From Halobacteria archaeon HArc-gm2 (lineage in GTDB: Archaea; Halobacteriota; Halobacteria; Halobacteriales; Haloarculaceae), in assembly GCA_025517465.1 (NCBI GenBank), contig JAOPKE010000002.1, forward strand, positions 434,001-498,000: 64,000 nucleotides of DNA, given 5' to 3'. Under the pieces are notes generated by a model. The model searched no databases, was not told the origin of the DNA, and saw only the letters and a list, made by a program, of their open reading frames with translations. The position numbers were made by a program, and so were the translations under genes. Each line of letters opens with the position of its first letter. The stretch's first letter is position 1. Below are positions 18,569 to 58,099 of the stretch, piece by piece.

Positions 18569-19252
18569 ATGGGAACGCCGCTGGAGTCACGCGAGGCACA
18601 GGCCGAGGCGGTCGTCGAGCGCCTCCACGAGGAGTACCCCGATTCCGCCATCTCGCTGCGGTACTCGAACAGGCTGGAACTGCTCGTCGCCGTCGTCCTC
18701 TCCGCGCAGTGTACCGACGAGCGAGTCAACGAGAAGACGAAAGACCTCTTCGAGAAATATCAGTCCGCCGCCGACTACGCGGACGCCGACGAGGAGCAAC
18801 TGGCCGAGGACATCTACGGCATCACCTTCCACAACAACAAGGCGGGCTACCTGAAGGAGGCCGGCGAGATCATGGTCGAGGAGTACGACGGCGAGGTGCC
18901 CGACTCGATGTCGGGCCTCACCGACCTGCCCGGCGTCGGCCGCAAGACCGCCAACGTCGTCCTCCAGCACGGCCACGACATCGTCGAGGGCATCGTCGTC
19001 GACACCCACGTCCAGCGCCTCTCTCGCAGGCTGGGTATCACGGAGGAGGAGACGCCACCGAAGATCGAGGAAGACCTGATGCCCGTCGTCCCCGAGGACG
19101 AGTGGCAGCAGTTCACGCACCTCCTCATCGACCACGGGCGCGCGGTCTGTACGGCCCGGAATCCCTCCTGTGAGGGCTGCGTCCTGGCCGACATCTGTCC
19201 CTCGGCGAAGACCGACAGCGACGTCGACCTCGCCAGCGGCGAGGCGTGGTGA
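18569..19252 (+). CDS. nth: Endonuclease III
   Basis: A 227-residue bifunctional DNA glycosylase/AP lyase for oxidised pyrimidines in base-excision repair. The HhH motif LPGVGRKTANVVL carries catalytic Lys126, and VVDTHVQRLSRRLG carries catalytic Asp145. The [4Fe-4S] loop is C194-x6-C201-x2-C204-x5-C210. Length is standard. A second, divergent endonuclease III gene lies at 56.3-57.1 kb. Confidence 0.95.
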   Translation: MGTPLESREAQAEAVVERLHEEYPDSAISLRYSNRLELLVAVVLSAQCTDERVNEKTKDLFEKYQSAADYADADEEQLAEDIYGITFHNNKAGYLKEAGEIMVEEYDGEVPDSMSGLTDLPGVGRKTANVVLQHGHDIVEGIVVDTHVQRLSRRLGITEEETPPKIEEDLMPVVPEDEWQQFTHLLIDHGRAVCTARNPSCEGCVLADICPSAKTDSDVDLASGEAW

Positions 19253-52332: not shown

Positions 52333-53175
52333 TCAGCGGCGCTTCAGTTCGCCGGCGCGTTCGAGAATCCGTTCGGCCTGGTTGATCTGCGGCGCGTCGA
52401 TCATCTCTCCCTCGACGACGAAGACGCCCCGGCCCTCGGCGTCGGCGTCCCGCTTCGCCGTCATGATCGTCCGGGCCCACTCGACCCGTTCCGGGTCCGG
52501 CCTGAACGCGTCGTGGATCACGTCGACCTGTGCCGGGTGGATGGCGAGCTTCCCGTCGTATCCCAGGTGGCAGCCCCGGCGGGCGTCGTCCCGGAGCCCC
52601 GCTTCGTCCTCGTATTTTGTGTAGTGCGTGTCGATCAGGTCGACGCCCGCGGCCCGCCCGGCCAGGACCACGTGCTGGCGGGCGTAGGATAGTTCAGAGC
52701 CCTGGGCAGACCGCGTCGCGCCGATGTTGCCTGCGAGGTCTTCGGCGCCGAAGACCAGCGCTGACGTGGGTGCGGCGGTCGCGATGTCGGTCGCGCCCAG
52801 GACGCCCTCGGCGGACTCGACGAGCGCGATGATGGGCAGCGGCGCGTTGCGGTTCCGGAGCTTTCGGAACAACATCCGGACCTCGTCCGGACCCGACGTC
52901 TTTGGGAGCATCACGCTGTCTGGCGCCGCGCGCTCGAGGACGACGTCGAGGTCGTGGGTGGCGCCGTGGTCGATGGGATTGACTCTGACGGCGAGTTCGC
53001 AATCGACGTCGAGATCGGCGACGGCGTCCCGAACGTCCTCGCGTGCGACGTCCTTCCGGTCGGGGGCGACGCCGTCTTCCAGGTCGAACACCACCGCGTC
53101 CGCGCCGCTCGTCGCCGCCTTCCGGAGTTTGTCTGGCTGGTCGCCCGGCGAGATGAGGACGCTCCTGCGGACCAT
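52333..53175 (-). CDS. HpcH/HpaI-type CoA ester lyase
   Basis: A 280-residue member of the citrate lyase beta/CitE-malyl-CoA lyase family. Motifs: AVVFDLEDGVAPDRK (about 26-40), LAVRVNPIDH (about 61-70), ALVESAEGVLGA and GAEDLAGNIGATRS (metal and substrate site). Haloarchaeal relatives cleave methylmalyl- or citramalyl-CoA in the methylaspartate cycle and related paths; the substrate is not settled here and no partner genes lie nearby. Confidence 0.88.
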   Translation of the reverse strand: MVRRSVLISPGDQPDKLRKAATSGADAVVFDLEDGVAPDRKDVAREDVRDAVADLDVDCELAVRVNPIDHGATHDLDVVLERAAPDSVMLPKTSGPDEVRMLFRKLRNRNAPLPIIALVESAEGVLGATDIATAAPTSALVFGAEDLAGNIGATRSAQGSELSYARQHVVLAGRAAGVDLIDTHYTKYEDEAGLRDDARRGCHLGYDGKLAIHPAQVDVIHDAFRPDPERVEWARTIMTAKRDADAEGRGVFVVEGEMIDAPQINQAERILERAGELKRR

Positions 53176-53341
53176 AGCCCCCGTTGGGACCGAACGCACG
53201 TAACTCCGATTGCCGGATAGACGCCAGACTGCTGATCGACGGACCGTTAGGTCGACGCGACCGACGCGTACGGGCTGTCCAGTGCCAGAGAGCAGTGTAT
53301 GGAGCCAGTACTACTAAGCGGAGCCGAACTGAGTACAACAC

Positions 53342-54325
53342 ATGGAGTACAAACGGCTCGGTACCACGGGACTGGAGGTCTCACCGATCTGCTTCGGCAC
53401 CTGGCGCTTCGGCAAGGAACACGAGGACAGCGGGGTAATGGAGACCGACCGCGAGGGCGCTCACGAACTGCTCGACGCCTTTGCAGACCGCGGCGGGAAC
53501 TTTATCGACACGGCGAACGGCTACGGCGAGGGCCGGAGCGAGAAATGGATCGGCGAGTGGCTCGCCGACCGGGACCGCGAGGACTTCGTCGTCGCTTCGA
53601 AGTGCTACTGGTCCGACGTCTCGCGCTTCCAGGAGAACCTCTCCCGGAAGAACGTCCGCGCCGAGGTGGAGGGGTCGCTCGAAAAGCTGGACACCGACTA
53701 CCTCGACATCCTCTACCTGCACCGCTTCGACGACGAGACGCCCATCGAGCGCACCCTGCGCACCGTCGACGACCTGGTCAGTGAGGGGAAGGTCCACTAC
53801 GTCGGCATCTCGACGTGTGACGCCTGGAAGCTGGCGAAGGGCCTCTGGCAAGCTGACGTGAATAACTACGAGGCATTCACCGTCACCCAGCCCCAGTACT
53901 CGGCGACCCACCGCGACCCCGTCGCGAACTATCTGGACGTCTGCGCCGACCAGGACCTGGCGGTCTGCCCGTACTCGCCGCTTCACGGCGGCTTCCTCAC
54001 GGGCAAGTACGAGCGCGTCGGCGACGGCGAAGTGGAGGCGCCGGACGGCTCCCGAGCCGACCTGGACGAGCACTTCGAGGACTGGTACCTCTCGGAACGC
54101 GCCTGGGACGTCCTCGACGAGGTCCGTGCGGTCGCCGACGAGGCCGACGCGACGCCCGCCCAGGTCTCGTTGCGCTGGCTGATGGACCACGAGCGATTCA
54201 CCTGCGTGCCGATCATCGGTGCGCGGACCGTCGACCAGCTGGACGAGAACCTCGGCGCCGTCGACGTCGAACTGACCGACAAGCAGTTCGAGCGCATCGA
54301 CGCGGCCGGGCAGGCCGACGCCTGA
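53342..54325 (+). CDS. Aldo/keto reductase
   Basis: A 327-residue NADPH-dependent reductase of the AKR superfamily (AKR11-12-like). The tetrad is visible: Asp and Tyr in FIDTANGYGEG (about 51-61), Lys in VVASKCYW (about 80-87), His in ILYLHRFD (about 121-128). GARTVDQLDENLGAV is the C-terminal cofactor segment. A TATA-like run (ctactaagcg, 53311-53320) is about 26 bases upstream. Element B1 begins at the last base of its stop codon. Confidence 0.92.
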   Translation: MEYKRLGTTGLEVSPICFGTWRFGKEHEDSGVMETDREGAHELLDAFADRGGNFIDTANGYGEGRSEKWIGEWLADRDREDFVVASKCYWSDVSRFQENLSRKNVRAEVEGSLEKLDTDYLDILYLHRFDDETPIERTLRTVDDLVSEGKVHYVGISTCDAWKLAKGLWQADVNNYEAFTVTQPQYSATHRDPVANYLDVCADQDLAVCPYSPLHGGFLTGKYERVGDGEVEAPDGSRADLDEHFEDWYLSERAWDVLDEVRAVADEADATPAQVSLRWLMDHERFTCVPIIGARTVDQLDENLGAVDVELTDKQFERIDAAGQADA

Positions 54326-54406
54326 TAGTGGTGGTTGTAAACCCTTGCCGGCGTTCGACGGGACCGGCGCCATCTAACGCCGGTAATACGTTACAACCAC
54401 CACTAT
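54325..54406. repeat. Element B1: inverted repeat downstream of the reductase
   Basis: Perfect 16-base ends (54325-54340 atagtggtggttgtaa, 54391-54406) with an inner stem ccggcgtt / aacgccgg (54348-54355, 54376-54383). It starts at the aldo/keto reductase stop codon and ends 35 bases before the stop of the convergent PIN gene. It could act as a two-way terminator or be a small mobile palindrome. Confidence 0.85.
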
Positions 54407-54440
54407 AAGACTGCGCCCACTGCTCGGCAATTCCGCACTT

Positions 54441-54923
54441 TCAGACTTCGTCCAGTTTCTTCTGTATCTTGGTGTAGACCTGCGGGCTGAGATTCATTCC
54501 TTCGTCGACGAGGTCGTACAGGAGGTCGCTCGCTTCGTCCGCGCTCAGCGTTTCTTCCTTCGTGCATTTCAGGAGCAGCGTCGTCACCCACCAGCATTCG
54601 ACGTCGTGGCTTCGACCGACCGTTATCAGCCCCTTGTCGTTCGCCAGGAGTACCCTTTCTCCGGCCTCGGCGTGCAGGATAACGGACGCGTCGATGACCG
54701 CGATCCCCTCTAGTGACGCTACCTCCTCCGCGCTGGGATGTGGTTCGACCACGTCCGCGTCGTCGAGAAACGCTTTGAGGGCGGCAGTCCCCGGCTTCCC
54801 ACCGGTGAGGAGTTCGTCCCGAACGCCATCGGTCGTCCGAACGTCGTCGAAGGCCGCTCCGATCAGATCGAGCCGGCCGACCCGCGACAGCGGGATCAGC
54901 GCGGAGGAATCGACGACGACCAT
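54441..54923 (-). CDS. PIN-domain toxin (DUF3368 type)
   Basis: A 160-residue PIN protein, a presumed ribonuclease toxin. Acidic catalytic candidates lie in VVVDSSALIPL (Asp5), DGVRDELLTG (about 33-42), IAVIDASVILHAE (about 74-86) and LLANDKGLI (about 92-100), the order of DUF3368/VapC-like proteins. A C-terminal helical region follows (about 120-160). It overlaps the antitoxin gene by one base (TGATG). Confidence 0.86.
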   Translation of the reverse strand: MVVVDSSALIPLSRVGRLDLIGAAFDDVRTTDGVRDELLTGGKPGTAALKAFLDDADVVEPHPSAEEVASLEGIAVIDASVILHAEAGERVLLANDKGLITVGRSHDVECWWVTTLLLKCTKEETLSADEASDLLYDLVDEGMNLSPQVYTKIQKKLDEV

Positions 54924-55216
54924 CAGATTCGATCCAGGTCGCGATCGAGATCCTCGGCCGTGTACCCGACGTCCAGCCCCTCCTCGGAGGCGAGAGTCAG
55001 CATCTCGACGTAGCTCAGGTCCGCTATCTCCGCCGCTTTCCGGAGCGTTACAGCGTGGTCACCGAGGAGGTCGAGAGCCCGTTCCTTTCGCCACTCTTCC
55101 AGGCCCTGCCTGATGAGCCGGCGGAGGACCTCCGACCGGTCCGCACTCATCTCTGCTTCGAGTTCCGAGAGCGCGTTCTCGTCGTCCTCGGGGATGCGAG
55201 TGGTGACAGTCTCCAT
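54923..55216 (-). CDS. UPF0175-family antitoxin
   Basis: A 97-residue protein: ribbon-helix-helix start (METVTTRIPEDDENALSELE, about 1-48) followed by the UPF0175 segment KAAEIADLSYVEMLTLASEE (about 60-79). These pair with DUF3368 PIN toxins as an operon, as here. It should bind the toxin and repress its own promoter. AT-rich sequence just upstream (55217-55256, gttacgatacagtatagatg) probably holds promoter and operator. Confidence 0.87.
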   Translation of the reverse strand: METVTTRIPEDDENALSELEAEMSADRSEVLRRLIRQGLEEWRKERALDLLGDHAVTLRKAAEIADLSYVEMLTLASEEGLDVGYTAEDLDRDLDRI

Positions 55217-55316
55217 CGTTACGATAACTGACGTTACGATACAGTATAGATGTAACGACCCATCCGGCTCCGATCAGGAGAAGAATTCGACGCCAACCGG
55301 ACGTGGTCGGTGGCTC

Positions 55317-55483
55317 ATAGTGGTGGTTGTAAGCCCTTTCCGGCGTCCGGCCGAACTGCGTGAGGCCGGGCTCGATAGACGAATGGAGTGAGCGCGGGCT
55401 CGACGGACGAGCAGAGCGAGTCCGTCGGCGTTCGACGTGGCCGATGCCGTCGAACGCCGGAAAAAAGTTACAACCGTCACTAT
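55317..55483. repeat. Element B2: longer inverted repeat upstream of the antitoxin
   Basis: The same ends as B1 (55317-55332; 55468-55483 with two mismatches) but a longer interior (about 135 bases) with short complementary strings (ccggcgtccg, cgaacgccgg). The right end touches the stop codon of the stranded endonuclease III end, giving the same TGATAGTG context as B1 at the reductase gene. Confidence 0.8.
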
Positions 55484-55607
55484 CAGTCCGCCTCCGACAC
55501 CTCGCTCGGATCCACCACGTCGCCGTCCACGGGATAGACGCCGACCTGGTCGCAGAGATCCTCGATAGGACAGGCGTCCGGGCCGTCGAGACACGCCGGC
55601 TTCCGGG
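55483..55607 (-). pseudogene. Stranded original C-terminus of endonuclease III
   Basis: Translated, this gives RKPACLDGPDACPIEDLCDQ, then VGVYPVDGDVVDPSEVSEAD and a stop. It matches the C-terminus of the gene at 56287-57126 in kind (same cysteine spacing) and is GC-rich like the rest of the window. The first 40 bases in gene direction are identical to 56366-56405. It has no start and is separated from its gene by an AT-rich insertion. Confidence 0.85.
55568..55607. repeat. 40-bp direct repeat, left copy (possible attachment site)
   Basis: Identical over all 40 bases to 56366-56405, 798 bases away. It lies inside endonuclease III coding sequence over the iron-sulfur loop. The two copies bracket the AT-rich insertion, as attL and attR would. 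Confidence 0.85.
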
Positions 55608-55671
55608 TGGATACGCTACCGGTAAATCCCAGGAACAGGTTTAACCAGCTATTATGGGGGTAGCTGGTTTT

Positions 55672-55935
55672 TTATCCGAAGATTTGCGAGGCGACCTTGA
55701 CTAATCCCATGAAAAGCAGTCCAACCACGACCCAGTGGACTACTTTTCCGAGATCTCGAGACATCTCCGCTGGTAGTCCTGCTTCAAGCAGGAACCCCGA
55801 AATTCCAGACGCTATACCGTTTGCTACCCCGAAAACCATCCCGAGCAGAATCATCCCGGCTACAAGTACCCCGAGGATGAGGAGTAGCAATTTTTCATCC
55901 GGTCCAATGGCGCTTTGATTTCGAGAGGCCATCAT
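55672..55935 (-). CDS. Small two-helix membrane protein in the insertion
   Basis: An 87-residue protein with hydrophobic segments at about 16-36 (LLLLILGVLVAGMILLGMVF) and 65-84, and a short amphipathic part between (LLEAGLPAEMSRDLGK). Gly-rich stretches (GVANGIASGISG) follow the first helix. It resembles in size and build the small membrane proteins of haloarchaeal viruses and plasmids, but I recognise no family. Base composition differs from neighbouring genes. Confidence 0.55.
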   Translation of the reverse strand: MMASRNQSAIGPDEKLLLLILGVLVAGMILLGMVFGVANGIASGISGFLLEAGLPAEMSRDLGKVVHWVVVGLLFMGLVKVASQIFG

Positions 55936-56177
55936 GTCAGCCGAGAGTTGGTTATCTAATAAGTTTTGGGGTGGTGTGAGAGATTTTAATCAGCTTATAT
56001 CGAGCTTTATGACTCTCAATGCACTCGAATTAGGAAATGAGTGCATATATAGATTGTATATAAATTGTTGCCGTTTCGAATGCTCTCTGTTAGAAACTGA
56101 ATCATTTTTTAAGCGGCTGGAAACCCTCAAAACGGGGAATACAGGAACTTAATATATTGATTGCCGCTACAGGGTTC

Positions 56178-56224
56178 TGCAACGGTGTTTTGCAACACTC
56201 TCAGGGGTATTTTGCAACACTTTC
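56178..56224. repeat. TGCAAC repeats near the right attachment copy
   Basis: ttttgcaacactctc (56188-56202) and ttttgcaacactttc (56210-56224) are 22 bases apart, and a shorter tgcaac lies at 56179-56184. The spacing of two helical turns suits binding sites for a replication or recombination protein. Confidence 0.5.
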
Positions 56225-56286
56225 TGGAATCTATTACATTGGTGATTCTGGGAAGTGTCCTTGATAAGAATCCTCAAAGCAACGAG

Positions 56287-57126
56287 TTACTCTATAGCTT
56301 CTGCGGGGTCGCAAACTTCACCTGATTCAATGGAAACCCCAACTCGGTCACATATGTCGACTAATGGACAGGCGTCCGGGCCGTCGAGACACGCCGGCTT
56401 CCGGGCGGTGCAGTACTCGCGCCCGAACTGGATCATGGCGGTGTGACCGAAGCCACATTTCTCGCCGGGAACCGCCTCCTCCAGCGCTTCGCGGACGCCC
56501 TCGTGGTCCGCGTCGGCGGGCGCGACGCCCAGCCGGCGAGCGATGCGGTGGACGTGCGTGTCGACGGGGAAGACGCCGGGCTGGCCGCCGGCGAACAGCA
56601 GGACGCAGTCGGCCGTCTTGGGGCCGACGCCGTTCATCGCCAGCAGCGTGTCCCGGACCTCCTCCGGGTCGCCCTCGCGGACGAACTCGTCGAACCCCGC
56701 CGCGGAGCCGTACTCCTCGACGACGCGTTCGGCGATTTCGACGATCCGGGCCGACTTCTGGTTGTACAGCCCTGCCGACGAGATGGTCTCGGCCAGGTGG
56801 CTCTGTTCGGCCTCGGCGAGCGCGACGGCGAGATCGGGATCGAGGTCGTCGTCCCCATTGTCTTCGCCGTCTGGCGCATACCGGTCCATCAGCGCGTCGT
56901 GGGCCGGCTGACTCGCCACGTCGGAGGTGTTCTGGCTGAGGATCGTTCGTACCAGACACTCGAAGGCGTCCCGCCCGCCGTAGGTCTTCGTCCAGTACAT
57001 TTCGCCGAGACGGTCGACGACTTCTTCTGCGCGGGTGTCGGCCTCGGCCGGGTCGAACGCCGCCGCGACGCCGCCGCCAGACGCGCCGCCGCTGATGTTC
57101 TCCGTCGGCTCCGGGTCGTCGGTCAT
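56287..57126 (-). CDS. Second endonuclease III-like glycosylase, C-terminus replaced by insertion
   Basis: A 279-residue HhH-GPD DNA repair enzyme. Catalytic Lys170 in MNGVGPKTADCVLLF and Asp189 in FPVDTHVHRIARRLG; the iron-sulfur loop is C239-x6-C246-x6-C253-x5-C259. An acidic loop (about 86-98) is inserted. The last 26 residues (from Pro254, with Cys259) are encoded by the AT-rich insertion, not by native DNA, yet restore the fourth cysteine in frame. The start at MTDDPEPTEN is 94 bases from the divergent NmrA gene. Confidence 0.9.
   Translation of the reverse strand: MTDDPEPTENISGGASGGGVAAAFDPAEADTRAEEVVDRLGEMYWTKTYGGRDAFECLVRTILSQNTSDVASQPAHDALMDRYAPDGEDNGDDDLDPDLAVALAEAEQSHLAETISSAGLYNQKSARIVEIAERVVEEYGSAAGFDEFVREGDPEEVRDTLLAMNGVGPKTADCVLLFAGGQPGVFPVDTHVHRIARRLGVAPADADHEGVREALEEAVPGEKCGFGHTAMIQFGREYCTARKPACLDGPDACPLVDICDRVGVSIESGEVCDPAEAIE
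56366..56405. repeat. 40-bp direct repeat, right copy (possible attachment site)
   Basis: Identical to 55568-55607. It encodes the iron-sulfur loop of the endonuclease III gene. Base composition changes sharply at its left edge. Confidence 0.85.
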
Positions 57127-57220
57127 GTCCGTCTGTAGCCGCGCGTCGCCAATAACACCTCCCAACTCGGAGACGGGTTCCGCCGGCGGCTTCTTCACCG
57201 GCACAGCCCAACTCGTGGTC

Positions 57221-58099
57221 ATGACCGTTCTCGTCACCGGTGCGACGGGCACCGTCGGATCCCGCGTCGTCGCCGCGCTCACCGCCGCGGACGAACCCTA
57301 TCGTGTGGCCGCTCGCGACACGGCGCGCGCCCGAGAGTCGATCGACGCTGACTCGGCAGTCTCGTTCGACTTCGAGAAACCGGAGACGTGGGGCGACGCG
57401 CTCGATGCCGTCGACCGGCTGTTCCTCGTGCGACCGCCGCAACTCTCCCGGGTGGGCGCCATCACCGACTTCGTGGACGCCGCGGAGCGGGTCGGCGTGG
57501 ACCACGTCGTCGTTCTCTCCGTCCTCGGCGCCGAGAAGAACCCGTTGCTGCCCCACCGACGGATCGAGCGCCACGTCGAGGGGACGGGCCTCGAGTGGAC
57601 GTTCGTCCGGGCGTCGTTCTTCATGCAGAACTTCCTCGAAGAGCATCGCGAGGAGGTGCGCGACGGCGTGTTATTCGTCCCGGCCGGCGACGGAACGACC
57701 AGTTTCGTCGACGCGCGCGACGTCGCCGCCGTGGCCGCCGCAGCGCTGACCGAACCCGATCACGGCGAGCGGGCCTACGACGTGACTGGTCCGGAGGCAC
57801 TGACGTACGACGAGGTCGCAGCGGTGTTCAGCGACGTCCTCGACCGGCCCGTGACGTACGCGAACCCGTCGCTGCCGAGATTCGCCTGGGAGACCTACCG
57901 GCGCGGGACGTCGCTCGGCAAGACCCTGGTGATGAGCGGCATCTACACGACGGCCAGGTTCGGCCTCGCGGGACGAGTGGCCGACGACGTTCGGACTGTA
58001 CTGGGCCGCGACCCGATCGACTTCCGGACGTTCGTCGATGACCACGCGAGCGACTTCGCCGTCGAGCGGTCACCCACGCGATCGCACCCCCGGAACTGA
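57221..58099 (+). CDS. NmrA-like NAD(P)-binding protein
   Basis: A 292-residue atypical short-chain dehydrogenase. MTVLVTGATGTVGSRVVAAL holds the GxxGxxG nucleotide loop (about 7-13). Other typical segments are HVVVLSVLGAEKNPLLPHRR (about 104-123), WTFVRASFFMQNFLE and SFVDARDVAAVAAAAL. NmrA-like proteins sense NAD(P) or reduce quinones and small carbonyls; role unknown here. Confidence 0.88.
   Translation: MTVLVTGATGTVGSRVVAALTAADEPYRVAARDTARARESIDADSAVSFDFEKPETWGDALDAVDRLFLVRPPQLSRVGAITDFVDAAERVGVDHVVVLSVLGAEKNPLLPHRRIERHVEGTGLEWTFVRASFFMQNFLEEHREEVRDGVLFVPAGDGTTSFVDARDVAAVAAAALTEPDHGERAYDVTGPEALTYDEVAAVFSDVLDRPVTYANPSLPRFAWETYRRGTSLGKTLVMSGIYTTARFGLAGRVADDVRTVLGRDPIDFRTFVDDHASDFAVERSPTRSHPRN

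Follow-up and report, generated by a model that had tools for sequence, protein, structure and literature searches.

The endonuclease III gene (nth) of Halobacteria archaeon HArc-gm2 almost certainly carries a foreign element whose insertion restored the 3′ end of the gene that it interrupted. The account of this insertion that we prefer, if only moderately, is that its 758 bp represent a minute integrative element, non-autonomous and joined to nth in a site-specific manner by a recombinase acting in trans. The gene lies in a stretch of 64,000 nucleotides that was analysed as a whole and is called the window here. Other genomes are given by G numbers where they must be told apart.

Results

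The 3′ end of nth

The product of the interrupted gene matches the Pfam families HhH-GPD (E=3.5e-19) and EndIII_4Fe-2S (E=3e-4) as well as TIGR01083 (E=1.2e-32, under the curated cut-off), and is 88% identical in amino acids to the nth product of G006, a genome of the same genus. The genome has a second endonuclease III-like gene, at positions 18593-19207 of the window (+ strand; G000:C11:452593-453207), and the disrupted nth is thus not its sole gene of this kind. The features of the region are listed in Table 1.

Table 1. Features at the 3′ end of nth (positions in the window).
Feature	Position	Strand	Basis or remark
nth (endonuclease III), chimeric: host body and element-supplied C-terminus, 279 aa	56287..57126	-	Pfam, TIGR01083, identity to G006
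Element-supplied nth 3′ end (last 25 codons and stop), AT-rich codons	56287..56365	-	GC3 break
att-like copy, nth side	56366..56405	-	40 bp, identical to the other copy and to G006
Inserted element bounded by the two copies	55608..56365		758 bp; 798 bp including one repeat copy; 44.9% GC
Three GTTGCARAA repeats, spacers 13 and 4 bp	56175..56218	-	Also in the G103 element
Gene for 87-aa protein, predicted hairpin of two long helices	55672..55935	-	54% identity to the G103 element protein
Inverted repeat followed by a T run, terminator-like	55643..55669	+	Not above chance, mean 1.1 in shuffles
att-like copy, far side	55568..55607	-	40 bp
Stranded original nth C-terminus and stop codon	55483..55607	-	38/40 residues and 113/123 bases as in G006 nth

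Direct comparison shows that the two 40-mers are identical and 758 bases apart. Mismatches bound both copies (A/T before, T/C after), and the 40 bp form the exact core of a longer, 73-nt repeat with 81% identity over its whole length. An exact repeat of this length cannot have arisen by chance. One end of the insert thus has its direct repeat in a readable gene, which runs to ...CPLVDICDRVGVSIESGEVCDPAEAIE and a stop, and the other has it in a stranded gene end, where the left copy opens the frame TRKPACLDGPDACPIEDLCDQVGVYPVDGDVVDPSEVSEAD, closed by a stop at 55483-55485. GC makes up 44.9% of the insert but 69.8% of the nth body and 63.2% of the left flank, and the composition of nth breaks accordingly, GC3 being 0.36 in the last 25 codons and 0.89 in the preceding ones. 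The end supplied by the element is nevertheless homologous and in frame, and the chimeric gene retains all four cysteines of the Fe-S cluster (CPLVDIC against CPIEDLC). The original prediction had described this architecture from the letters alone, i.e. the identical repeats and their spacing, an endonuclease III body to the right of the second copy, a stranded in-frame C-terminus to the left of the first, and a replacement C-terminus with its cysteine motif drawn from the AT-rich insert; all of it is borne out.

One might suppose that the two copies are alike because this part of the gene changes little. Yet the 40-mer shows no special conservation, with a third-position conservation of 0.54 against 0.61 upstream, and the nth genes of the compared relatives other than G006 differ from it at 5-9 of its 40 bases. 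Hence, the exact identity of the two copies calls for an explanation by recombination.

The empty site

In G006 nth is uninterrupted: it ends in CPIEDLCDQVGVYPVDGDVVDPSEAPEAD and a stop, contains the exact 40-mer, and the 758-bp element is absent. Only 22 bp lie there between the stop of nth and that of an aldo/keto reductase gene; in the window the insert, the stranded end and a further insertion lie between these two genes. An uninterrupted version of the gene had been named as something to look for in relatives, and old paralogy of the two C-termini as an observation that would count against an insertion. Since G006 has the uninterrupted gene together with the stranded C-terminus and the 40-mer, the two C-termini are not old paralogues. 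Against G006, the stranded piece has 10 differences in 123 bases, none of them within the 40-mer, and the nth body has 80 in 712. The stranded end has therefore diverged no faster than the body of the gene, and by this measure the insertion is young.

Tandem C-termini of nth do resemble a partial duplication, and one might speculate that the 3′ end of the gene was duplicated locally, or is paralogous, with AT-rich filler between the copies and no mobility at all. This is at odds with the composition of the insert and the element-like codon use of the new C-terminus, with a relative from another family that has this gene in the same place (see below), and with the empty site, unless G006 has precisely lost the insert. 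We regard such a duplication as very improbable. Two matches to the nth C-terminus at E<=1e-4 occur in only 3 of 392 genomes of the order, namely those of the window, G005 and G307.

Some other observations concern this locus. No close relative of the window nth was found in the congeners G001 and G002. Beyond the stranded end lie two palindromic MITE-like repeats (54326-54405 and 55318-55482), whose 15-bp ends read TAGTGGTGGTTGTAA, one end with 2 mismatches. They enclose a weakly PIN-like gene (54441-54923) and a UPF0175/ribbon-helix-helix gene (54923-55216), possibly a toxin-antitoxin pair. The block made up of these repeats and genes is wholly missing in G006.

Content of the insert

The insert contains one convincing gene, encoding 87 aa, for which AlphaFold2 predicts two long helices with a mean pLDDT of 90. 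Neither Pfam nor PHROGs gave a match to the protein. Among 392 genomes of the order its sole relative is found in G103, which belongs to another family; the two are 54-56% identical and the G103 gene also adjoins nth, directly behind it. The two genes differ at 33, 17 and 58 first, second and third codon positions, respectively, in 82 codons, a pattern that indicates constraint on the protein. We take the gene as putatively serving a cargo or maintenance function.

The insert and G103 also have in common a triple repeat, GTTGCAAAA, found in only these two among 281 haloarchaeal genomes. Its GTTGCARAA units are placed between nth and the gene for the 87-aa protein, with spacers of 11 and 4 bp in G103, and even the looser pattern of two units has no other occurrence in the genome of the window. 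The two elements are collinear (C-terminus, repeats, gene) and similarly spaced. The sole match to the triple repeat in viral contigs, L076, was discarded: it is a simple TTTTGCAACC array, and the genes of this contig resemble those of an unrelated tailed phage. Rfam gave no matches within 53000-58000.

Insertions at the same gene end in other haloarchaea

We found insertions at the 3′ end of nth in five other haloarchaea: G103, G307 (a Natronomonas MAG), G005 (MAG QS_4_62_28, of the genus of the window), G015 and G391 (Halobiforma nitratireducens). In all five, nth has an in-frame addition of about 40-47 residues, which we call the linker, followed by a second ...EKCGFGHTA and a new C-terminus. 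The junction lies some 15-20 codons earlier than in the window, and GC3 falls there in every case, from 0.80-0.92 to 0.29-0.66. They have a short core, near AAATGYGGSTTCGG, upstream of the one in the window; the window element thus uses a different position in the gene end. As the cores differ in this way (ARKPACLDG in the window, near KCGFG in the relatives), a single common recombinase cannot simply be assumed. Beyond the cargo, old nth ends could be read by eye in four of the five genomes, with an intact frame in G307 and broken ones in G103, G015 and G005; the limits of the core in decayed copies were likewise judged by eye.

The cargo varies. That of G103 is the relative of the 87-aa protein, and the others are a lipoprotein-like protein with a small protein (G307), a Tat-signal protein (G005), a CAAX protease (G015) and an HsdS-type protein at the end of the contig (G391). 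The four relatives seen whole measure about 1.0-2.2 kb, the G391 contig stopping at 3,278 bp, inside its element. The far end of the element in G307 carries a broken gene for an Arc-like ribbon-helix-helix protein (L035, 11000-11370), possibly the trace of a larger parent. The HsdS-type specificity gene behind nth of G391 (L053, 2583-3269) lies at the end of its contig, and this element may carry a restriction system.

When pairs of genomes are compared over 32 codons of the linker, third positions differ 14-21 times and second positions 0-8 times; the linker is conserved at the protein level. The linkers of G015 and G307, which share a genus, resemble each other less than do those of G103 and G005, which belong to different families; this speaks for horizontal spread. 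Searches with one genome per species, covering 146, 125, 28 and 170 genomes of four families and a sample of 391 genomes of the class, returned only these five linker-type genes. G327 seemed to be another at first look, but turned out to have a normal nth. The linker is not an intein by our assessment: the extra stretch measures only about 40-47 residues and has no significant match to the Pfam intein families, the motifs having been checked by eye. A predicted structure of a linker-type enzyme was set aside for its mean pLDDT of 45, and about 30 over the linker.

Integrases, free forms and other mobile elements

As far as the elements could be seen, which for G391 means up to the end of the contig, none contains an integrase. 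Nor was there one near nth in the six carrier genomes, in which PF00589 matches lie elsewhere. The original prediction of an integrative element that preserves its target therefore stands as regards the insertion and the restoration of the target, both evident from G006 and the five relatives; the insert itself encodes no integrase, and the mechanism of integration is one that we infer.

Two other kinds of element were considered and rejected. A casposon or another DNA transposon does not fit, for no pair of inverted repeats was found at the ends of the insert and its three largest ORFs match no Cas1 or transposase family. A haloarchaeal virus, e.g. a pleolipovirus, does not fit either: the 87-aa protein matches nothing in Pfam or PHROGs and has no relatives in the phage, plasmid or viral-contig collections. 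The viral contigs contained neither the exact 40-mer nor anything related to the 87-aa protein, to the linker, to the C-terminus of nth or to the lipoprotein of G307, and the insert matched nothing in the phage and plasmid collections. No free form bearing an attP was found in the viral, phage and plasmid collections searched. The plasmid collection held one plasmid-borne nth, with the linker part missing. The lipoprotein carried by G307 has one relative on a Halobaculum plasmid, with no integrase among its annotated neighbours.

Mechanism of integration

We suggest that the element once formed a circle of about 798 bp, in which a 40-bp copy of part of the Fe-S coding segment of nth was followed by a diverged nth C-terminus of the element's own. 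An exchange between this site and nth on the chromosome would have split the gene near codon 254, so that the host body would now run into the C-terminus of the element and the original C-terminus would be left stranded on the far side. Conservative recombination of a circle with a copy of the gene end in its att site would fit the exact identity of the 40 bp, the abrupt ends, the empty site and the repeated use of this gene end. The recombination was probably site-specific rather than homologous. The join would then have been made by a site-specific recombinase, most likely of the tyrosine type, and since the element has none this enzyme would have been supplied in trans.

Homologous recombination, by a single crossover between nth and a circle carrying a fragment of its 3′ end, would require no site-specific recombinase. 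It would agree with an element devoid of such a gene, with 40 bp of perfect identity set in diverged sequence, and with a core whose dyad symmetry does not exceed that of shuffled sequences. But 40 bp is short for homologous recombination, and the same gene end was hit in six genomes of several genera, five of which share a common, shorter core. We consider a homologous crossover improbable.

Because the elements lack an integrase and the PF00589 matches lie elsewhere, the element either moved in trans or is a trimmed remnant. In the second case, the ancestor would be a larger provirus or plasmid that entered nth by means of an integrase of its own and was then reduced to little more than its two ends and one gene. 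The lack of any remaining recombinase is in line with such a history, and the broken Arc-like gene that ends the G307 element and the HsdS-type gene at the contig end of G391 hint at larger parents. Yet the sizes of the four whole relatives and the collinearity and similar spacing of the window and G103 elements imply that the loss would have had to recur alike, and the window insertion is already minimal while its stranded tail suggests that it is young. A remnant seems to us a possible but rather doubtful origin. We slightly favour movement in trans, with an element that had no integrase already when it moved and was not trimmed later.

Discussion

Elements as small as these seem to consist of little beyond the repair of their target, one or two genes and short repeats. 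One might speculate, and we do so tentatively, that they belong to a family of integrase-less haloarchaeal cassettes that are moved in trans and share the Fe-S end of nth as landing site. Each would bring a C-terminal segment, five of them with the peptide of some 40-47 residues, and integration would thus alter the enzyme. If the cassettes do move in this way, haloarchaea have in nth a natural landing pad for cargo of a single gene. In the linker-type relatives, codon-position differences place an element-encoded peptide under protein-level selection inside a repair enzyme of the host.

That a DNA-repair gene is the target was correctly predicted, nth being identified as such, but protein-coding targets, including repair genes, are not new (icd, mutL, dusA, and the target of BJ1). 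SpyCI of Streptococcus pyogenes targets the DNA-repair gene mutL (PMC4129442); unlike the window element it uses the 5′ end of the gene and is associated with a mutator phenotype. The dusA-specific genomic islands also have a protein-coding target and provide it with a structurally suitable replacement end (PMC4482086), but they are large islands or prophages of bacteria, with a known integrase family, and use the 5′ end of the gene. Among archaeal elements in protein genes, BJ1 lies in the HMG-CoA reductase gene and casposons in the 3′ region of the aEF-2 gene (PMC8371274, PMC4046053). In contrast to the window element, BJ1 is a whole virus; casposons bring a Cas1 gene of their own and are bounded by terminal inverted repeats, and we found neither feature here. 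Our search of the open-access literature, subscription papers being outside its scope, found no report of integration into an archaeal nth. Elements without a recombinase of their own have a precedent in the integrase-less vibriophages, which are integrated by XerC/XerD of the host (PMC4246890); for the window element a supply in trans is what we suppose.

The restoration of the 3′ end of the target is already known from e14 and phage 21, which insert within the coding sequence of the E. coli icd gene, near its 3′ end, and duplicate a 165-bp segment, so that the 54 residues of the C-terminus can still be read in an intact frame and a partial copy, icdC, remains beyond the element (PMC11148124, PMC4129442). 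The window element likewise restores the 3′ end and leaves a partial copy beyond. Unlike e14, which has the integrase gene intE, it carries no integrase; it also differs in its size of 0.8 kb, its archaeal host, its DNA-repair target and its strongly diverged replacement end. It thus works like an element of the e14 type without being a full member of that class, of which an integrase is part. What is new is nth as a target, the minute form without integrase, and the linker. The solution that phages use at icd recurs in archaea, on a gene of DNA repair.
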